From positions 62,001 through 126,000 of the forward strand of contig NZ_WEZF01000007.1 in NCBI RefSeq assembly GCF_009177065.1: a stretch of DNA of 64,000 bases, given 5' to 3'. Below the pieces are notes generated by a model. It was not told the origin of the DNA. It made no database searches and worked only from the letters and a program-made list of their open reading frames with translations. Source of the stretch: Tautonia marina. GTDB lineage: Bacteria; Planctomycetota; Planctomycetia; Isosphaerales; Isosphaeraceae. The position numbers were made by a program, and so were the translations under genes. Of this stretch, positions 42,750-51,588 are shown in pieces; positions within the stretch are counted from its first letter, which is position 1; every line of letters starts with the position of its first letter.

Positions 42750-43064
42750 CGTAGCGAAGAATCGGACAGCGTGCGACGCTTCCCGGCGTTGAGGGGGCAC
42801 TGAGGGATTCGGGGAGAGGGAAGAGGGATCGCGCGCAGAAACGCAACGTTGCAAAGGGGAGAGGAAACGGAGAGGAGAGAGAGGGGAGTCGCTGTGCAAA
42901 GGCAGGCTCGCGCTTCTTTGCGGCTCTGCGTCTCTGCGCGTGTTTCCTCCCTCGCCCACGTGGCAAGAAACCGTTCGTGTCCCCGGGGCCGTTGCTCCGT
43001 CGAGGACAATGACCGTAGAGTGAAACAAAGGGAACCGAACACGTCGAGGGTGGGGTGAGCGTTG
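42750..43064. other. intergenic region with a TCTGCG-type short repeat
   Basis: About 315 bases between the divergent EamA and RING-like genes. GCGGCTCTGCGTCTCTGCGCG at about 42920 is like the TTTGCGxCTTTGCGTC short repeats common in intergenic DNA of several phyla. The promoter for the downstream operon should be here but is not clear. Confidence 0.45.
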
Positions 43065-43901
43065 ATGGACGTCCTGGTCGTCGGGATCATCGTCCTGGCC
43101 CTGTATGCGGTCGTCCGGGTTTTCGGGGCGATCTGGGCGGGCTTCTCGGGGGCGAGATACCGGGCGTATCGTGCCCTGGCTCGGCAGTACCGGGGGCGTT
43201 ACGAGCATCGAGGGCTGGTCGACCCGCCGACGGTGAGCTTCGGCTACCACGGATCGAGCGTTCGGGTGGGCCTGGCGCCGGTGGTGGCGGGGCAGCCGTC
43301 GATGCCGAGAACGCGCGTGGTCACGCGGTTCGGCGAGGGGATTCCGTTCCGGTTTGAGCTGTTCCCGGTGACGCGTCCGTCTCCGAAGCAGGTTCCACGA
43401 GGAACGAGGCTGGTGAGGCTCGGGGATCCGGTCTTCGATCGCCATTACGTCGTGCGGGCGAACGATCCGGAGATCGCCCGAGAACTGCTACACCAGAACT
43501 CGGCCCGGTCGGCGATCGAGAACCTTCGGAAGCTGGGGCCACCGGGGGGGATTTTGGTGTCGGTCACCCCGGAGCGGCTGCTGGTGCAGGTAGATCGGAA
43601 CCTGGGGCAGAGCGTCTCGGGGCTGGATCTGGCGGTGCGGGAAAGTCTGGTGTTGCACGATCTTCTGCGATCGAACATCCAGGAGCGGATGGCCGAAGGG
43701 ATTGCGATCGTCGATGTCGGCGCGTCGAGCCCGGTCGAGGCGGGGCCGCCGATCTGCAAGGTCTGCAACGAGCCGATCGGGCCGGACGAGGCGAAGGTGA
43801 TCTGCGCCTCGTGCAAGACGCCGCACCACCGCGATTGCTGGACCTTCGTCGGGGCCTGCTCGATCTACGGTTGCCAGGGAAAGCAATGCGTGTCGGCGTG
43901 A
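43065..43901 (+). CDS. membrane-anchored RING-like zinc-finger protein (E3-like)
   Basis: 278 residues. An N-terminal membrane helix (VLVVGIIVLALYAVVRVFGAIWAGF), a middle domain of unknown type, and a C-terminal zinc domain C231-x2-C234-x12-C247-x2-C250-x3-H254/H255-x2-C258-x6-C265-x4-C270-x4-C275, as in prokaryotic RING/treble-clef domains (CxxC...CxxC...HxDCW). Such domains in bacteria sit beside E1/E2 genes, as here. It may present substrates at the membrane to the E2. Ligase activity is inference. The ATG at 43065 is chosen over a TTG at 43062. A 175-bp gap with a small hairpin separates it from the UBL gene. Confidence 0.8.
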   Translation: MDVLVVGIIVLALYAVVRVFGAIWAGFSGARYRAYRALARQYRGRYEHRGLVDPPTVSFGYHGSSVRVGLAPVVAGQPSMPRTRVVTRFGEGIPFRFELFPVTRPSPKQVPRGTRLVRLGDPVFDRHYVVRANDPEIARELLHQNSARSAIENLRKLGPPGGILVSVTPERLLVQVDRNLGQSVSGLDLAVRESLVLHDLLRSNIQERMAEGIAIVDVGASSPVEAGPPICKVCNEPIGPDEAKVICASCKTPHHRDCWTFVGACSIYGCQGKQCVSA

Positions 43902-43922
43902 GGGTGTGTGTTGTGGGAAACG

Positions 43923-43940
43923 GCCCCTTTTCGAAGGGGG
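43923..43940 (+). terminator. small hairpin between the RING-like and UBL genes
   Basis: CCCCTT (43924-43929), loop TTCG, AAGGGG (43934-43939). No T run, so a weak attenuator at best; it may lower read-through into the UBL operon. Confidence 0.4.
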
Positions 43941-44076
43941 GATCCGGGCGATAGGATGGGGTGATCCTCGATCCGTCAGGGTGCTTTGTTCGTGCCGCCG
44001 AGAATCAAAACGGTGCGCCGGTGCCTCAATAATCGCGGCCGAGGTCCGAATCGAATGCTAGAGGAGGGACCTTGCC

Positions 44077-44379
44077 ATGTCTTACGGCGGTAATGCAGAT
44101 GCCAGCGGGATCCAGGTCACGTTCCTGGACCAGACCGGATCGAAGTCGGTCAAGGCGGTGATCGCCTACAGCGTTCCGGTGAGCCGGATCCTGCCAAACA
44201 TCATCACGAAAATGAACCTTCCGACGACCGGCCCGGATGGTCAGCCGTTGAGCTACTCGCTCGACCACAAGGAAGGGCGGCGCCGGTTGACCGAGGCGCA
44301 AACCCTGGTCGAGGCGAGTGTGCAGAACGGCGATCACCTGATCGTCTATCCGGAGGTGGTCGCGGGCTCCGGCGCGTGA
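44077..44379 (+). CDS. ubiquitin-like beta-grasp protein
   Basis: 100 residues. IQVTFLDQTGSKSVKAVIAY, then a helix (SRILPNIITKMNL), then TLVEASVQNGDHLIVYPEV is the strand-helix-strand order of the ubiquitin/YukD beta-grasp fold (L-E-A-x-V-x-x-G-D-x-L-I). It is the likely tag that E1 activates. The C-terminus is VVAGSGA, not Gly-Gly: a final Ala would have to be removed to leave Gly, or a different end is used. GGAGGGACC precedes the ATG closely, giving a strong start. It lies directly before E2 and E1. Confidence 0.82.
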   Translation: MSYGGNADASGIQVTFLDQTGSKSVKAVIAYSVPVSRILPNIITKMNLPTTGPDGQPLSYSLDHKEGRRRLTEAQTLVEASVQNGDHLIVYPEVVAGSGA

Positions 44380-44433
44380 GTGCCGGCGGTGCCATGATTG
44401 TGACGCAATGCGATGAGCGTGAGGCCCTGCGCC

Positions 44434-45081
44434 ATGCTTCGGAAATCGTATGATTCGCCCCAGTCTCGCCGATTGCGCTCGGATCGGTCGGCGATGGAGC
44501 GGTTGCAAGAGGAAAGCACGATTCTCCGGTTCCGGGCGTCGGGCGATCCCGCGCAGCGCTATCTGATCGAGTTCCGAGGTCGAAGCCTGGCGAGAGAGCG
44601 CGGGAAGATCATCGCGCAGGACACGCATCAGGTGGAGATCAAGCTCGGGGCCTCGTATCCGAGGAGCATGCCCGAGCTGCGCTGGCTGACGCCGATCTAT
44701 CACCCGAACATCTCGGAGATCGGCCTGGTTTGCCTGGGCGGCTACAACACGCACTGGGTGCCGAGCCTGCAGCTCGACGAACTGTGCGAGATGCTCTGGG
44801 ACATGGCCCGGTTCCACAACTATGATCTCCGCAGCCCCTATAACCGCGACGCGGCGCTGTGGGCAGCGAATCAATCGACGTTTGCCTTTCCGATGGACGC
44901 TCGCCCGTTGCGTGACGCGAGAGCGGCGCAAGGCAGAATCGAGCCCGAGGCGGTAACCTCGCCCCAGGTGACCGAGGGGGAGTCGATTGTCTTGCTCGAT
45001 GAGGAGGTGGCCTTGCCCCCTCGCCGCGAACCGGCCCCGGTGCGCCGGGAACCGCCACCGGATATTCTGTTCATTGAGTGA
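44434..45081 (+). CDS. E2-like ubiquitin-conjugating enzyme
   Basis: 215 residues from ATG 44434 with GAGG nine bases upstream; ATG 44413 is the alternative. The UBC fold is clear: ERLQEESTILRFRASG at the start, VEIKLGASYPRSMPELRW, then the HPN box (H90 P91 N92) and the catalytic Cys C100 in GLVCLGG, eight residues on as in eukaryotic E2s, and LQLDELCEMLWDM for the following helix. The tail contains ESIVLLDEEVAL and ends PDILFIE. It would take the UBL from the E1 as a thioester. Its stop overlaps the E1 start. Confidence 0.9.
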   Translation: MLRKSYDSPQSRRLRSDRSAMERLQEESTILRFRASGDPAQRYLIEFRGRSLARERGKIIAQDTHQVEIKLGASYPRSMPELRWLTPIYHPNISEIGLVCLGGYNTHWVPSLQLDELCEMLWDMARFHNYDLRSPYNRDAALWAANQSTFAFPMDARPLRDARAAQGRIEPEAVTSPQVTEGESIVLLDEEVALPPRREPAPVRREPPPDILFIE

Positions 45082-46319
45082 CACCACGATCCCTCGTGAC
45101 TGGATGGGATGGGAGCCTTCGGATCGTGGACGATGACATCCTGCACATTGACGACGACGATCGTTATAGCCGCCTGCGCCTGATCTCGTGGTGGCGCCAG
45201 GATCGCCTGGCGGCGGCGAAGGTGTTGGTCGTGGGGGCGGGGGCGCTCGGGAATGAGGTCCTGAAGAACCTGGCGTTGCTGGGGGTCGGGACGGTGGTCG
45301 TGATCGACCTGGACGAGGTCGAGGCGTCGAACCTGTCGCGGTCGGTTCTGTTTCGGGCCGAGGACGGTGGACAGCCGAAGGCGGAGGTAGCGGCGCGTCG
45401 GGCGAAAGAACTGAACCCGGATGTGAGTATTCGGGCGATTCATGGAGATGTGATCACCGACATCGGTCTTGGCCTGTTTGCCGAGATGGACGTGGTGATC
45501 GGCTGCCTCGACAACCGCGAGGCGAGGCTCTGGGTCAACCGGCAGTGCTGGAAGGTGGGTACGCCGTGGGTTGATGCAGGGATCCAGGAAATCCAAGGGG
45601 TCGTCCGCGTGTTCGTGCCGCCGGATTCGGCCTGTTACGAATGCGGGATGACGAGCCGGGATTATCAACTGTTGAACCTGCGGTATAGCTGTCCCCTGCT
45701 CCGCCGGGAAGACATTCTGGCGGGAAAGGTGCCGACCGCGCCGACGATTGCTTCGATAATGGCGGCAATGGAAGTGCAGGAGGCGTTGAAGCTGATCCAC
45801 GGGATGCCGGTGCAGGCTGGTTGTCTTCATGTGTTCAACGGGGTGGCGAACACCTTCTACACGACCGAGCTGCCGCGCAAGGAGGACTGCCTAAGCCACG
45901 AGACCTATCCCGAGCCGATGCGGGTGGACCTGGGCCACTCGGCGACGGCCGAGGCGGTGTTTCACGTGGCACGGGAGCATCTGAGCGGACCGTTGGTGCT
46001 GAGCCTCGACCGGGACCTGGTGGCGGCGATTGAGTGGCCGCAACTGGGGAGACGTCAGGAAGTGATGAAGCCGAGGTCGAAGGTGAGCGTTGCCGAAGCG
46101 ATCGACCCCGAGTCGGGGGAGACAGGACGGCCGGAACTCATCTCGATGGTTGAGGAAGGGACTCCCCTGGCCGAGCGCTCCCTGGCCGATCTCGGCGTGC
46201 CACCGTACGATGTCGTCCGTGTCGAAGGGCTGGACGGCGCGGTCTTCATCTTGCTGGAGGCCGACCGGGCGGGGGTGATGAACGCCTCGGGAATTCAATT
46301 GCCTCAAGACACTCGTTGA
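45078..46319 (+). CDS. E1-like (ThiF-superfamily) activating enzyme with C-terminal extension
   Basis: 413 residues, starting at GTG 45078 inside the E2 stop. ATP binding: VVGAGALGNEV (G53, G55, G58), then DLDEVEASNLSRSVLF. Zinc: C186-x2-C189 with C271 and H274. The most likely catalytic Cys is C205 (RYSCPLL), before IASIMAAMEVQEALKLIHG. After about residue 285 the protein adds 130 residues, ending in ADLGVPPYDVVRVEGLDGAVFILLEAD, which looks like another beta-grasp or E2-binding (UFD-type) domain. It activates the UBL by adenylation and hands it to E2; ThiF or MoeB-type sulfur transfer is less likely in this setting. Confidence 0.88.
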   Translation: MTPRSLVTGWDGSLRIVDDDILHIDDDDRYSRLRLISWWRQDRLAAAKVLVVGAGALGNEVLKNLALLGVGTVVVIDLDEVEASNLSRSVLFRAEDGGQPKAEVAARRAKELNPDVSIRAIHGDVITDIGLGLFAEMDVVIGCLDNREARLWVNRQCWKVGTPWVDAGIQEIQGVVRVFVPPDSACYECGMTSRDYQLLNLRYSCPLLRREDILAGKVPTAPTIASIMAAMEVQEALKLIHGMPVQAGCLHVFNGVANTFYTTELPRKEDCLSHETYPEPMRVDLGHSATAEAVFHVAREHLSGPLVLSLDRDLVAAIEWPQLGRRQEVMKPRSKVSVAEAIDPESGETGRPELISMVEEGTPLAERSLADLGVPPYDVVRVEGLDGAVFILLEADRAGVMNASGIQLPQDTR

Positions 46320-46346
46320 TTTGACCTCGGGAACCAAGAGCCGCCA

Positions 46347-47789
46347 GTGAGCAGCGATCGCGACGAGATCCAGTTTGATGAGGTGAGCTACCGGGAGCCG
46401 CTTCGGCTGCGCCGGCCCGACCGGGATCGGCGGTTCGCGTGCCTTGCGTATGGGAACCCGGGGCCGGAGGATCTGGCGATCTTTGTCGATCGGGCGACGG
46501 TCGATGCGATCGAGCGTCATGCGCTGAGTGACACGAGGGTGGAACTCGGGGGCATCCTGCTGGGCAAGGAGTGCGTAGACGAAGAGACGGGCAGGCCGTT
46601 TGTCTGGATCTCGCAGGCGATTGAAGCGAAGCATTACGAGAACACGCAAGCAAGTTTCACGTACACGCACGACTCGTGGGAGGAAATTACCCGCGAGCGC
46701 GACCGAACGTATCCGAACCTGGATATCGTCGGCTGGTACCATACGCATCCGGACTTCGGCATTTTTTTGTCGGGGCACGATGTGTTCATTCAGCAGCACT
46801 TCTTTGGCCAGCCGTTGCAGGTAGCCTACGTGGTCGATCCGATCCGCCAGACGCGGGGCATTTTCCAGTGGCGGGACGGAGGGTTGAGGCAGGTCGAGGG
46901 GTATGTGGTCGTCTCCCCTCGGGACCAGCGGCGGGCCCTGGCCCGGACGGTCGACGACCTGGAGGGGGTGCTGGTGGCCGAGTCCTCGGGAGGACTGGGC
47001 GCACTCTCGCCTCGCCTGGAAGCGGAGCTGATCGCCATGCTCAATCGACCGCACACCGCCTCGGCAACGACGGCCGACCGGGGCCAGTCGGCCGCGGTGT
47101 TCACCTTGCTGGGGATCATCTTCGGCGTGCTCGGCCTGGCGCTGGCGCTCTGGATCGGGGCGTTGACGAGCCAGATCCGGGAGCAGTCGCGATCGCTCGG
47201 CAGCCTGCGGGCCGAGCTGGCCCGCGCGAACGAGGCGCGCGAAGCGTCGGACACCGCCGAGCGGCTCCGAGCGAAGGAACAGGCGATCGACGCCTTGCTG
47301 GCCGAGGTCCGCGTGGGGGATTCGAACGAGCGGTTCACCCGCGTCTATACCCAGTTGCGCGAGGAGCGCGATCGGGCCGTCGCCGAGGCGGCCCTGGTGG
47401 AACAGGTCGGGCGTGATCTGATCGCCAAGGAACGGCAACTGGCAGAGATGCGTCGTCAGGTGGCGATCCGGGACCAATCCCTCGCCCAGATGGATGCATT
47501 GCGTGAGGAAGCCAATCAGCTCCGAGCGGCGAACGAACGGCTCGCCCTGGCCGCTTCGGGAGATGGGACCGCGATCGACGGGGAGCTGTCGGACGAATCG
47601 GACGCGAGTGACCGGCGGTACACGGTGGCCTGGTATGCGGCGGTCGGCGGGTGGTCGGTGGCGATCTTGCTGGGTCTGGGGCTGGTGGCGAACATTGCGC
47701 GATCGGTCCCGCATTCGAGCAACGAGACGGAGCCCCCTGCCCCGTCGGGTCGGGGTCGGTCGCCAGACTCGCCCCACCGGATTGAATGA
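46347..47789 (+). CDS. membrane-anchored JAMM/JAB isopeptidase
   Basis: 480 residues from GTG 46347, 27 bases after the E1. The metalloprotease core is at residues about 45-185: E66 in ELGG, then H132-x-H134-P and S142-x2-D145 (HTHPDFGIFLSGHD), the full JAMM motif. It would trim the UBL precursor or remove the tag from targets. Then come a membrane helix (VFTLLGIIFGVLGLALALWIG, about 252-272), a long coiled coil (about 280-405) and a second membrane helix (YAAVGGWSVAILLGLGLVA). The anchored form is unlike eukaryotic Rpn11. Confidence 0.9.
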   Translation: MSSDRDEIQFDEVSYREPLRLRRPDRDRRFACLAYGNPGPEDLAIFVDRATVDAIERHALSDTRVELGGILLGKECVDEETGRPFVWISQAIEAKHYENTQASFTYTHDSWEEITRERDRTYPNLDIVGWYHTHPDFGIFLSGHDVFIQQHFFGQPLQVAYVVDPIRQTRGIFQWRDGGLRQVEGYVVVSPRDQRRALARTVDDLEGVLVAESSGGLGALSPRLEAELIAMLNRPHTASATTADRGQSAAVFTLLGIIFGVLGLALALWIGALTSQIREQSRSLGSLRAELARANEAREASDTAERLRAKEQAIDALLAEVRVGDSNERFTRVYTQLREERDRAVAEAALVEQVGRDLIAKERQLAEMRRQVAIRDQSLAQMDALREEANQLRAANERLALAASGDGTAIDGELSDESDASDRRYTVAWYAAVGGWSVAILLGLGLVANIARSVPHSSNETEPPAPSGRGRSPDSPHRIE

Positions 47790-47923: not shown

Positions 47924-48469
47924 ATGATGATCCGCGTGATGCTGGGAGCTGCCGTCGGGCTGGGGATCGTGGGGGGGGCCGCCGTGGTGGCGAAGCAGCA
48001 AGGCCCTCCAAGGGTAGCGGCCCCCGTCCCGGCGGAGGAGCCGTCCCCCCCTCGCATCTCGGACGAGGTCGAGGCATTGTCACCTCCCGCGATGCCGCCC
48101 GAGGTGGTGGGCCTCGAACCTCTCGTCGGCTTCTCTGATCCGGACGAGGTCCTTCCCCCGTTGCCGGGAACCAGGCCGCCCCGAATCGTGGCCGCCGGAG
48201 TGGAGGCGAGCGCGACCGTCATCGATTCCGAGACCTTCATCGACGAGGGGCGAGCGACGGCCGAGGGGGTGATCGAGGCCTTGACAGACGAGCGCAAAAC
48301 GTTGGAGGCCCGCCTCCGACGCATCGATGATGAGCTGGCACGCTGGGAGGCGATCAAGGAGGGGCTGACCACGGCGAAGGAGATGACGCCTCAAGTGCCA
48401 TCGGCGCGAATCAATCCATCACCCGACGATTCCCTGGACCTCGAACCTCTTCCGGAACCGGGCCAGTAA
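47924..48469 (+). CDS. small membrane-anchored or exported protein, downstream of the JAB gene
   Basis: 181 residues, GGAGTGAG upstream of the start. An N-terminal hydrophobic stretch (VMLGAAVGLGIVGGAAVVAK) lacks a clear cleavage site. It is followed by Pro/Glu-rich linker sequence and one coiled-coil helix (EALTDERKTLEARLRRIDDELARWEAI). No known domain. It comes 134 bases after the JAB gene, so it may or may not belong to that operon. Confidence 0.6.
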   Translation: MMIRVMLGAAVGLGIVGGAAVVAKQQGPPRVAAPVPAEEPSPPRISDEVEALSPPAMPPEVVGLEPLVGFSDPDEVLPPLPGTRPPRIVAAGVEASATVIDSETFIDEGRATAEGVIEALTDERKTLEARLRRIDDELARWEAIKEGLTTAKEMTPQVPSARINPSPDDSLDLEPLPEPGQ

Positions 48470-48783: not shown

Positions 48784-51588
48784 ATGCCTTTTGATGCCCT
48801 GAGGTGGTTTGTCAGTCGACGGCCGGCGGTGGTCGTCGCGTGCTGGATCGTGGTTCTGGTGGTGGTCGTTGGGCTTGCGCCAGACCTGACTCGGATCGCG
48901 GCCGAAGGGCAAGCGTCGCTGCTGCCTGAAGGGTCGGAGAGCGCGATAGCGGCCGAGATTCTGGGCAAGACCTGGCCGGAGCAGTGGTTCGACTCGTCGG
49001 CGGTGGTCGGGGTCTACAACCCCGAGGGCCTGACGGACGACGATCGCGACTTCGCCGCGCTGCTGGCCGATCGGTTTCAACGGAGCGACCGACCGGAGGT
49101 GCTCTCGACGGTCCTGGCTCCATCGCCCGATCAGCCGGAGGTGTCGGCTCGGCTCATCAGTCGCGACGGCACGCTGATGCTCATGTTCGTCGCCATCGAC
49201 GAAGCGTTCGTCAGCCCGACGAGTCAGGAGGCGGTGGCCTGGCTGGAACGGGAGGTCAAGGCGCTCGACTCGGAGCGGCCGGAGGGGGCTTCGGTCGTCT
49301 GGAGCGGCGCGGCGGTGATCGGCCGGGACTACATGCAGAACGTGCAAACCACGCTCGACCGGGCGGCGGTTGCGGCGTTCTTCTTGCTGCTGGTGGTCTT
49401 GCTGATCGTCTACCGGTCGATCTTCCTGGCGATGGTGCCGTTGATCACGATCGGCGTGAGCCTCTTGATTGCTCGAGGGCTACTGGCCTGGGGGGCTGAG
49501 CTGGGCTGGGAAGTCTCGTCACTGGTCGAGCTGTTTCTGGTGGTCCTGCTGTTCGGGACGGGGACGGATTTTTGCCTGTTGCTCTCGTGGCGGTTCGGGG
49601 AGAACTGGAACGCCTCGAACCCAAGCGCGGCGATCCGGACGACCCTCGGGCGCGTGGCCCTGGCCGTGGTGACGAGCGCGTTCACGACCATCATCGGGCT
49701 CTCGTTGATGGGGCTGACGCGGTTCAAGCTGTTTTCGAGCACCGGGCCAAGCGTGGCGTTCGGCCTGGCGATCACCGTGGTGGCGGCCCTGACCCTCGCC
49801 CCGGCCTTGCTCCTGTTCCTGGCGCGATGGAGGCCCCGATCGTTCACCGGATTGACGAGACCGCCGTCGGGCTACTGGGATCGGCTGGGTCGGGCGGTGC
49901 TGAAGCGTCCTTGGCTGGCCTGGGGCCTGACCCTGGCGGCCATGATGCCGATGGCGGTCCTTGGACTTCAGCTGACGGCGCAGAATGCGTTCATCCAGGA
50001 TACGATCTCGGAGATGCCCCCAACGGCCGGCTCGGTCGAAGGGCTCGCCCTGATCTCGTCCAAATTCGGCGCAGGGGCGACGGCACCGATGGCCGTCTTG
50101 CTGGAAGCGAGGCCGGAGGACCCGGACTTCCGCAGCTCGGTCGGCCTGGCGGCACTGGATGACATTAGCCGATTGCTCTCGCACCAGCGAACGCTCGTCG
50201 AGGTTCGATCGGCCACGCAGCCGCTCGGGAGCACGGCCCCTCTGGAACCGGCTCGGCTGTCTTCGCGGCTGTCGGCGGTCAACGAGGGATTTGAACGGCT
50301 GGTTGAGGGGGCGAAGGAGCTGAAAGCGGGGCTCGATGAGGGCGGCGGGCGCATTCGGGGGGCGATGCTCCTCGGCGAACTGACCGGGGCCGATGTGCTT
50401 GGGGAGATTCCGGGCTCGCCCCCCCCTGCTCCGGATCAGGAACCCGAAGCGGCGGCCAAACCCGATGCGGAATCGGGCCGCCCCTCACAGAGCGATCCGG
50501 TGACGGCGGGATTGCGGCGGGCGACCTCGGCGATGCTCGGGCAGTTTGGGGGAGCGGCGGCGGCACAGAGTGTCAGCTCGATCGGCCCGGTCGAGGGAGA
50601 CGGCCCGGTCGCCCAGTTGCTCCGGGAGCTGGCCCGAGCGGCCGAAGGAGCCGGCCAGATCGCCGAAGGGGCCAGCCTGGCTCGTCGGGAGATCAGCAAC
50701 ATTCTGGAGGACCCGGTCGGCCACCGAGCACTCGATCGGTTGTTGATTGACGAGCGGACGATCGAGGAAAACCCGGAACTGCTGCGCGGGTTTGCGGCCT
50801 ATCTCTCGGAGGATGGGAGGCGGGCTCGGATCGATCTGGAGCAGGCGAGCCGACCGTTCTCCCCTCAGGCACTCGATGAGGTGGAAACGATTCGGCAACG
50901 GCTTCAGGATTATTTGAGCGAGTACGATGAGCGGGACCCGATTCACCCGAAGGCGATGGTGGCCGGGCCGAACGCCGAAGGGGCCGACATCCGCGCCTTG
51001 ACCCGTCGGGATCAGTATCAGACGTGGATCATGGTCCCGCTCGGTGTGTTTCTCGTCCTGGTGGCGATGCTGAGAGCACCGCTGGCGTGCGTGAATCTGG
51101 TGGCGACGATGATCCTCACGTACGCCTTTGCCCTCGGGATCACGCACATGGTCTTCGTGTGGGGAGGAGGAGCCGAGGGCCTGGACTGGAAGGTGCCGTA
51201 CTTCCTGTTCGTGCTGCTGGTGGCGGTGGGGGTCGATTACAACGTGTTCCTGATGTCGAGGCTTCAGGAGGAAGTCCGGGCGCTCGGCCTGAAGGCGGGA
51301 ATCACGAAGGCGATCGGCCAGACAGGCGGGTTGATTACCTCGGCGGCAGGAATTACGGCGTGTAGCTTCGCGGCGATGATGTTCAGCCCGTTGCTCTCGC
51401 TGCGACAACTGGGGTTTGCCCTGGTCGTCGGGATCGTGACCGACGCGGCTCTGGTGCGGCCGGTGTTGGTGCCGTGCGGCCAGTGGTTTCTGAACAGAGG
51501 ACGCGAGAAGCGTCGGCAACGGGCGCTGACGAAAGAGAACGCGCCGGGGGCCAGCGTGCCGCAGTCGAGGGAGACGATTCTCTCCTGA
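48784..51588 (+). CDS. MMPL/RND-family transporter
   Basis: 934 residues. Two halves of six membrane helices each with a large periplasmic loop, as in MMPL proteins. The family motif FGTGTDFCLLLSWRFGE lies in the first half and VGVDYNVFLMSRLQEE in the second, at the proton-relay position. It probably exports a lipid or drug-like molecule. The loop region (about 490-640) is very Ala/Glu-rich. It starts about 1 kb downstream of the JAB gene. Confidence 0.88.
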   Translation: MPFDALRWFVSRRPAVVVACWIVVLVVVVGLAPDLTRIAAEGQASLLPEGSESAIAAEILGKTWPEQWFDSSAVVGVYNPEGLTDDDRDFAALLADRFQRSDRPEVLSTVLAPSPDQPEVSARLISRDGTLMLMFVAIDEAFVSPTSQEAVAWLEREVKALDSERPEGASVVWSGAAVIGRDYMQNVQTTLDRAAVAAFFLLLVVLLIVYRSIFLAMVPLITIGVSLLIARGLLAWGAELGWEVSSLVELFLVVLLFGTGTDFCLLLSWRFGENWNASNPSAAIRTTLGRVALAVVTSAFTTIIGLSLMGLTRFKLFSSTGPSVAFGLAITVVAALTLAPALLLFLARWRPRSFTGLTRPPSGYWDRLGRAVLKRPWLAWGLTLAAMMPMAVLGLQLTAQNAFIQDTISEMPPTAGSVEGLALISSKFGAGATAPMAVLLEARPEDPDFRSSVGLAALDDISRLLSHQRTLVEVRSATQPLGSTAPLEPARLSSRLSAVNEGFERLVEGAKELKAGLDEGGGRIRGAMLLGELTGADVLGEIPGSPPPAPDQEPEAAAKPDAESGRPSQSDPVTAGLRRATSAMLGQFGGAAAAQSVSSIGPVEGDGPVAQLLRELARAAEGAGQIAEGASLARREISNILEDPVGHRALDRLLIDERTIEENPELLRGFAAYLSEDGRRARIDLEQASRPFSPQALDEVETIRQRLQDYLSEYDERDPIHPKAMVAGPNAEGADIRALTRRDQYQTWIMVPLGVFLVLVAMLRAPLACVNLVATMILTYAFALGITHMVFVWGGGAEGLDWKVPYFLFVLLVAVGVDYNVFLMSRLQEEVRALGLKAGITKAIGQTGGLITSAAGITACSFAAMMFSPLLSLRQLGFALVVGIVTDAALVRPVLVPCGQWFLNRGREKRRQRALTKENAPGASVPQSRETILS

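Follow-up and report, generated by a model that had tools for sequence, protein, structure and literature searches.

A stretch of 64,000 nucleotides from Tautonia marina (hereafter the window; assembly GCF_009177065.1, NZ_WEZF01000007.1, contig positions 62,001-126,000; genome 7.07 Mb) carries at its positions 43065-47789 five adjacent plus-strand genes, which encode a RING protein, a ubiquitin-like protein (UBL), an E2, an E1 and a JAMM/JAB peptidase. We consider it likely that this operon specifies a complete, reversible protein-tagging cascade that is a resident housekeeping system of its family (Isosphaeraceae) and not a phage defence. Taken part by part, the core cascade is highly probable, the housekeeping role fairly likely, and a membrane site of action somewhat favoured. 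An initial annotation of this DNA had proposed a full E1-E2-E3 and deconjugation cascade and had named the Bub/Bil antiviral systems among known neighbourhoods of this sort: the cascade is well supported by the protein families, the invariant residues, the conservation of the operon, the co-retention of its genes and the tail pattern of the UBL, and kinship to Bil is not supported. Features beyond that annotation are the AG end of the UBL with its varying tail, the E1's C-terminal domain, the TtfA-like part of the RING protein and a short motif common to E2 and JAB.

Gene content and conservation of the operon

The five genes lie where they had been annotated and on the same strand: RING protein at 43065-43901, UBL at 44077-44379, E2 at 44434-45081, E1 at 45078-46319 and JAMM/JAB peptidase at 46347-47789, with alternative starts possible for the RING protein (TTG at 43062) and the E2 (44413). 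The E2 and E1 genes overlap by four bases (GTGA) and thus resemble translationally coupled genes. Scored against the curated Pfam cut-offs, all five proteins were above threshold: the RING protein for Prok-RING_1 (PF14446; 37 bits, cut-off 29.1; 3.4e-9), the UBL for YukD (PF08817; 53.7 bits, cut-off 27; 3.6e-14), the E2 for UQ_con (49.8 bits, cut-off 27; 3.5e-13), the E1 for ThiF (200.3 bits, cut-off 28.1; 3.5e-59) and the peptidase for JAB (36.8 bits, cut-off 22.5; 3.7e-9). The operon's own proteins were the only matches to Prok-RING_1, YukD and the E2 profile in the genome.

Scanning the contigs of 84,980 species with an E1 alignment yielded 485 stretches with relatives, and the analysis went on with the best 80 loci. 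These were mainly from planctomycetes (Isosphaeraceae and Pirellulaceae), together with metagenome-assembled genomes (MAGs) labelled Riflebacteria, Wallbacteria, Abditibacteriales, Deltaproteobacteria and, in one case, 'Euryarchaeota' (L145, where the E1 alone was found and which is possibly misbinned). UBL, E2, E1 and JAB stood together in 79 distinct loci (window included, duplicates removed), among them records named Singulisphaera, Tautonia, Paludisphaera and Aquisphaera. A homologue search had been suggested with the initial annotation as a check on whether the genes keep company: the RING gene was present as well in 53 of the 79 loci, and in 52 of these 53 all five genes were on one strand. 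Three gene orders were found among the 53: UBL-E2-E1-JAB-RING (36 loci), RING-UBL-E2-E1-JAB, which is the order of the window (15), and UBL-E1-JAB-RING-E2 (two).

Across the 79 loci, mean pairwise identity was 0.748 for the UBL, 0.685 for the E1, 0.574 for the E2 and 0.544 for the JAB, and UBL identity was higher than that of the E1 in 92%, of the E2 in 99.8% and of the JAB in 97% of locus pairs; among these four, the UBL is the best conserved. In a co-evolution comparison the distances of UBL, E2, E1 and JAB were correlated, with Spearman coefficients of 0.65-0.82.

Distribution in family and phylum

Profile searches of 45 Isosphaeraceae genomes found the UBL in 38, the E2 in 38 and the RING in 39. 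The E1, searched at E 1e-40, was detected in 31 of 37 family genomes (its own included) and in none of 22 genomes from six other families of the class, and across the phylum the UBL occurred in 18 of 294 genomes, two of them from the family (that of the window and one more). RING and UBL were both present in 36 of the 45 family genomes, RING only in three, UBL only in two (G020 and G032, 77 and 89% complete) and neither in four; these four are all of one genus, and the E2 is absent from them too. The Fisher p of 0.003 for this co-retention overstates it, since the joint loss of RING and UBL was probably one event, and one of the 36 genomes (G336) has, by score, only a paralogous type of UBL.

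The RING gene often lies away from the operon. Eighteen regions around relocated RING genes were retrieved. In 17 of them it stands without the other four genes, and two of these regions (L163 and L164) come from genomes without a UBL match; the remaining region (L168) holds RING-UBL-E2 together, with the E1 and JAB of that genome (G005) lying on a separate contig (L058).

The ubiquitin-like protein and its C-terminus

The YukD-type UBL (100 aa) contains the C-terminal motif PExxAG, which was found in 78 of 78 distinct UBLs; in the window the motif ends at Gly97 (codon 44365-44367) and is followed by the three-residue tail SGA. The motif's Gly is the last residue in 36 of the 78, for which maturation is unnecessary, and the other 42 bear tails of 1-215 residues. 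The first tail residue varies (R 12, S 12, A 6, G 6, Q 3 and one each of V, I and D), and two of the 42 tailed UBLs (L111 and L119) are in-frame fusions to the E2. Among 70 distinct non-paralogous UBL cores of 86 residues, 29 positions never vary, including the terminal AG and two Lys, and three Lys positions reach 95%. Such a constant, Gly-ended core with an unconstrained tail and a JAMM gene alongside would suit a UBL that is made as a precursor and trimmed by the JAMM peptidase, and an archaeal precedent described in the available text of PMC5654768 strengthens this suggestion. In a sequence search against solved structures the best match of the UBL reached only 0.038, so that its fold assignment rests on Pfam.

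E1, E2 and UEV-like second E2s

The E1 (413 aa) has a single ThiF-type adenylation stretch (residues 33-271), and its predicted structure (model pLDDT 90.6) lacks a confident fold before about residue 20. The glycine motif named in the initial annotation was recovered as GxGALGNE in 31 of 31 aligned sequences, and its proposed Cys205 (codon 45690-45692) and CxxC zinc site are equally firm (C186, C189 and C205 in 31/31, and again in 70/70); C271 and H274 (CxxH) probably form a second zinc pair. Among solved structures the E1's closest sequence relatives were UBA7 (3.6e-46) and then other E1s, and the best structural rows of the model were MoeB (Z 29.8) and ThiF (Z 29.3), which cover the adenylation part. 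Moreover, the model aligns as far as residue 393-396 with SUMO E1, UBA1, UBA6, UBA7 and one UBA3 chain. The C-terminal end of SUMO E1 and of the UBA-type E1s is the ubiquitin-fold domain (UFD). From these whole-model alignments, the C-terminal domain of the window's E1 (residues 281-402; 45918-46283) appears to occupy the UFD place and is a putative ubiquitin-fold, E2-docking domain. The E1s of the window and its genus lack a CxxC...CxxC pair in this domain (columns 320/323/343/346), where Cys stands in at least 90% of 70 sequences.

The E2 (215 aa) has Ubc13/UBE2N (E2 13) as its best solved relative (1.3e-13). HPN and Cys100 (codon 44731-44733), both noted initially, are present and invariant in 27 of 27 aligned sequences. 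Among 85 Cys-bearing E2s, 83 have Trp at the site equivalent to Phe62 of UbcH5 and 82 have W-x-P-S in the next loop; in UbcH5, RINGs make contact at these positions.

Relatives also encode 24 distinct second E2s, sorted on the absence of the catalytic Cys pattern. Twenty of them keep HPN with a different amino acid where the Cys would stand (Asn 10, Asp 4, Ser 2, and one each of Gly, Glu, Phe and His), four were not placeable by pattern, and the one that was scanned matched UQ_con (1.6e-7). By sequence, these Cys-less proteins are like the ubiquitin E2 variants (UEVs).

The window's E2 ends in a hydrophobic-acidic motif, DILFIE (45061-45078). C-termini of this type, [DE][IV]xF[IL][DE], were found in 71 of the 85 Cys-bearing E2s (0.08 expected by shuffling) and in 17 of the 24 second E2s (0.03 expected), and a kindred N-terminal motif, DEIQFDE in the window's JAB (46362-46382), occurred in 59 of 80 JABs with an aligned N-terminus (0.30 expected); the patterns were written after viewing the sequences, and the shuffling corrects neither for that nor for relatedness. 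Two of the 14 Cys-bearing E2s that miss the motif belong to a paralogous cluster without such an end, and most of the others are near variants by eye. Control counts were 2/92 for the E1, 0/70 for the RING, 4/82 for the UBL and 0/109 for E2 N-termini. An extension of the shared motif to the E1 N-terminus was rejected as general (2/92 by the JAB pattern, 10/92 by a LxFLD variant). As a guess, the motif shared by E2 and JAB might bind the UBL in the way of a SUMO-interacting motif.

The RING protein, the JAMM peptidase and the membrane

The RING protein (278 aa) is predicted, from its sequence, to be a membrane-anchored E3. It comprises a transmembrane (TM) segment at residues 3-21 (43071-43127; hydropathy 2.61; helix 2-27 in the model), a TtfA-like domain at residues 29-210 (43149-43694) and a RING-type zinc domain at residues 230-271 (43752-43877). 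Eight or more Cys/His ligands had been annotated: Cys 231, 234, 247, 250, 258, 265 and 270 were invariant in 57 of 57 sequences, and position 255 was His or Cys in all 68 readable sequences among 70 distinct RINGs. The hydrophobic C-x-[VI]-C was kept in 67 of 68, and its hydrophobic residue is presumably the RING's E2-contact site. A profile search of the PDB with the RING protein gave 2db6 as the best match (0.0019), whose cysteine-rich domain we take to be C1.

The AlphaFold2 model of the RING protein, built on 57 sequences, had a pLDDT of 90.9 and a pTM of 0.75. In Foldseek its only PDB match under 0.001 was TtfA, 6t84 (E 2.3e-7, prob 1.00), with which the predicted domain 29-210 aligned at VIA Z 15.0 (rmsd 3.9 Å, 160 aligned); TtfA was not among the matches of the RING protein sequence search against the PDB. 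The domain and TM segment together (residues 1-210) aligned with chain 4 of 7tm3, a multipass-translocon structure (Z 13.4, rmsd 3.8 Å, 198 aligned); this chain is presumably CCDC47. Likeness to the TtfA fold, by itself, shows no function.

The JAMM/JAB peptidase (480 aa) is a predicted UBL maturase and deconjugase. Its JAMM motif HTHPDFGIFLSGHD (46740-46781) contains H132, H134, S142 and D145, and these residues, like E66, are invariant in 29 of 29 aligned sequences, as the initial annotation would have it. Among solved relatives Rpn11 was best (4.4e-12), followed by the N11-like 6fjv (2.5e-10; presumably from a Caldiarchaeum archaeon) and then AMSH and CSN5. Hydropathy gave TM segments at residues 250-268 (47094-47150) and 432-450 (47640-47696), and 66 of 81 long JABs have two hydrophobic segments past the JAMM motif.

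By the same measure one segment was predicted in the RING protein, two in the JAB and none in the window's UBL, E2 and E1, in line with the membrane-tethered RING and JAB that had been proposed. At least one hydrophobic segment precedes the RING in 59 of 70 RING proteins.

Genomic neighbourhood

Pfam assigned the ten genes surrounding the operon to GroES, GroEL, a glycine transporter family, EamA, RNase III, ParA, ParB, prolyl oligopeptidase and PMT_2, with one gene without family, and an MMPL transporter and EF-P are further neighbours in the window. Pirellulaceae loci adjoin genes that, by eye, read as housekeeping. Moreover, a search of 72,556 plasmid and 50,697 phage records with the UBL at 1e-3 gave no match. 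Housekeeping neighbours and the lack of plasmid or phage matches thus argue against a Bil-type defence island.

The MMPL transporter (48784-51588, plus strand; MMPL 6.9e-94) is a recurrent neighbour in the family whose membership in the cascade is not shown. Of 29 other loci of the family, 14 have it next to the operon, one of these on the opposite strand. A second recurrent neighbour, an M48 peptidase (Ste24-like, with a CAAX-protease-type membrane part), occurs in 15 of the 29 loci (e.g., L072, L082, L083 and L091), in 13 of the 15 close after E1-JAB on the same strand; no M48 match was found in the window. The next commonest neighbour family was found in five of the 29. The 54 loci L092-L145, some with short flanks, held no MMPL, and neither MMPL nor M48 was near the relocated RING genes in any of the 18 fetched regions. 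Therefore the M48 and MMPL neighbours go with UBL-E2-E1-JAB and not with the RING. In mycobacteria TtfA interacts with MmpL3, according to the available text of PMC6593404; docking of the RING protein on the MMPL transporter was not adopted here, given the 18 regions around separate RING genes without MMPL.

Between JAB and MMPL lies X6 (47924-48469), which encodes a small protein with a hydrophobic N-terminus. It was tried as a sixth member of the operon and rejected: no family was over the cut-off, and among the 34 loci L032-L065 a relative was found only in L033.

Proposed cascade and alternative explanations

In the proposed scheme, the JAMM peptidase would trim the UBL precursor and expose Gly97, which the E1 would adenylate before holding the UBL as a thioester on Cys205; the UFD-like C-terminal domain of the E1 would help to hand the UBL over to the E2's Cys100, the RING protein, anchored in the membrane, would act as E3 and pass it to target lysines at the inner membrane, and the membrane-anchored JAMM would also remove it.

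Several observations weigh against this scheme. No UBL conjugate has been seen so far, the UBL ends in AG and not GG, and the YukD of Bacillus is reported, in the available text of PMC1779556, as not conjugated. For the E1, rmsd values are 3.6-7.5 Å where an alignment extends into the C-terminal domain, most of the remaining UBA3 chains align only to about residue 276 (whole model), and Cys205 would equal the catalytic Cys of other E1s by position only. The zinc domain compared with the RING 4s3o at Z 4.5 (52 aligned, 3.4 Å) and with BIRC7 at Z 4.3, tied with the PHD finger of Pygo (Z 3.7). Moreover, the RING is absent from the fetched stretch in 26 of the 79 UBL-E2-E1-JAB loci, some of which stretches end at contig ends, and it is found without UBL or E2 in G006, G009 and G027 (85, 92 and 81% complete; the RING match in G027 is partial). 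Finally, the hydropathy measure behind the TM calls also flags 35 of 92 E1s and thus over-calls TM segments.

The alternative closest to these doubts is that the RING protein is a TtfA-like membrane scaffold and not an E3, so that the cascade consists of UBL, E2, E1 and JAB only. The TtfA fold match and the often separate RING gene, present without UBL or E2 in those three of 45 genomes, speak for it, but C-x-[VI]-C is kept in nearly all relatives, E1-JAB is followed by one to three RINGs in Pirellulaceae loci, and RING, UBL and E2 are jointly absent in all four genomes of the one genus; we judge it unlikely, and a transporter scaffold in particular is opposed by the absence of MMPL from all 18 relocated RING regions. 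An antiviral UBL-conjugation system of the Bil or CBASS kind, or a part of a wider conflict system, is improbable. PADLOC models do match parts of the E1 and JAB (E1-E2 models at best 2.9e-18, BilD at 2e-10 over E1 residues 45-168, JAB models at best 2.2e-6), the spread across the phylum is patchy (18 of 294 genomes), and PMC7159879, in its available part, places UBL systems with JAB, E1, a RING-type E3 and a UBL-E2 protein in conflict systems (FtsH-ternary), with planctomycetes listed. On the other side, the window's UBL, E2 and RING matched no PADLOC model, the ten surrounding genes gave only ParB (3.5e-7) and ParA (1.8e-6) as domain cross-hits amid housekeeping neighbours, the plasmid and phage records held no UBL match, and UBL, E2 and RING are found in 38, 38 and 39 of the 45 family genomes.

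A sulfur-transfer or cofactor pathway, with a MoeB/ThiF-like E1, the UBL as sulfur carrier and E2 and RING as accessories, would fit the E1's matches to ThiF/MoeB NCBIfam models and folds, MoeB and ThiF being the best rows of its model. It appears very improbable: the curated ThiF/MoeB cut-offs are widely missed (best 149 bits of 275), such a pathway needs neither an HPN/Cys E2 nor a JAMM, and no cofactor genes were among the neighbours scanned. Scarcely credible, too, is a YukD assembly factor of type VII secretion with attached enzymes, to which the Pfam YukD match and one WXG100 protein elsewhere in the genome could point; the WXG100 gene lies on contig C12 and the operon on C7, neither an ESAT-6 nor an FtsK-type partner was among the neighbours scanned, and the YukD neighbourhoods in the available text of PMC1779556 hold secretion genes and not E1, E2 or JAB. 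As to the fate of tagged proteins, a degradation route through a 20S proteasome was considered and rejected: the genome's only proteasome-family match adjoins an open reading frame (ORF) that by eye reads as HslU, so the match is HslV-like and gives no support to this route.

Returning to the housekeeping cascade, a wider picture can be drawn by analogy, which we hold to be doubtful. The system may tag membrane proteins in the manner of quality control associated with the endoplasmic reticulum: the TM segment and TtfA-like domain of the RING protein would capture multipass clients, the two-TM JAMM would edit the tag, M48 and MMPL would be helper or client, the Cys-less E2 of Pirellulaceae would build UBL chains with a Ubc13-like E2, and the shared motif would dock E2, UEV and JAMM on a common partner.

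Relation to known systems

Burroughs, Iyer and Aravind reportedly predicted in 2011 YukD-like UBL/Prok-RING operons with an E2, an E1 with UFD, a JAB and a RING. The window's operon shares with these the YukD-like UBL, the HPN/Cys E2, the intact JAMM and the Prok-RING, and no excluding difference was found; its kind is already known by prediction, planctomycetes included. Related operons in Actinobacteria, Planctomycetes and Acidobacteria are stated in the available text of PMC4197634, which cites the 2011 prediction. In the literature searched, whose coverage leaves out most subscription papers, no paper came up in which a planctomycete YukD-type cascade had been tested biochemically. The present analysis adds evidence for a processed UBL, a domain in the UFD place, a UEV-like partner, a shared tail motif and a TtfA-like membrane part, and for a fixture of the family as opposed to a defence island.

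The ubiquitin operon of Caldiarchaeum, as described in the available text of PMC5654768, is alike in its tailed UBL precursor, E1, E2, small RING E3 and maturing and deconjugating Rpn11-like JAMM; the window differs from it in a YukD-type UBL ending in AG and in predicted TM segments of RING and JAMM. BilABCD, according to the accessible part of PMC11354881, likewise has a UBL, E1, E2 and JAMM, which exposes a C-terminal Gly, but its UBL has two domains, its E2 is of CEHH type, its E1 has an inactive and an active adenylation domain, and no RING is named there. Kinship to Bil, which the initial annotation had named among known systems, is not supported, in view of the window's one adenylation domain, its HPN...C E2, the lack of PADLOC matches of UBL, E2 and RING, the housekeeping surroundings and the presence in most family genomes. 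CBASS type II (Cap2/Cap3) has E1, E2 and JAB chemistry with a fused E1-E2 (Cap2) and a CD-NTase. The window shares that chemistry and differs in having unfused E1 and E2 and its own UBL, with no CD-NTase among the 18 window genes scanned. The YukD/EccD proteins of type VII secretion (PMC1779556, available text) belong to the same UBL family; in the window the UBL has the conserved C-terminal AG and stands in an E1-E2 operon, with no secretion genes among the neighbours scanned. A bacterial search for homologues of human E2s, described in the accessible part of the 2024 review PMC11354881, turned up no more than isolated examples, from Nitrospinota, Riflebacteria, Vulcanimicrobiota and Aminicenantes, and the planctomycete E2s thus seem under-noticed.

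If the proposed cascade operates, the normal physiology of a bacterial family that has cultured members includes an almost complete ubiquitin-type system, and the conjugated modifiers include a YukD-type UBL; with the relatives' UEV-like E2, this would be a bacterial E1-E2-UEV-RING-JAMM set with a membrane-anchored E3 and deconjugase. Since the maturation site (after Gly97) and the catalytic residues are named, the 2011 prediction is now directly testable.

Variant loci and minor observations

The WXG100 protein (L148, G000:C12:185799-186041) adjoins an ORF that reads as coiled coil, and no type VII secretion set was recognised by eye in 3.2 kb. Four MAG loci (L096, L104, L112 and L121; three labelled Riflebacteria, Wallbacteria and Deltaproteobacteria) have the order E1-UBL-E2-short JAB, and no RING was detected in the stretch. 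Four family genomes (L061-L064) contain a further, paralogous YukD-UBL cluster: its E1 is 42-47% identical to that of the window, and its JAB and, where seen, its UBL, RINGs and E2 are more distant. One UBL of this cluster (L063:5491-6195) runs on into a zinc-ribbon-like and DUF4190-like stretch, and one RING protein (L063:11234-12607) bears a trypsin-like domain. An additional short JAB and an additional E2 are found in many of the loci from Pirellulaceae.

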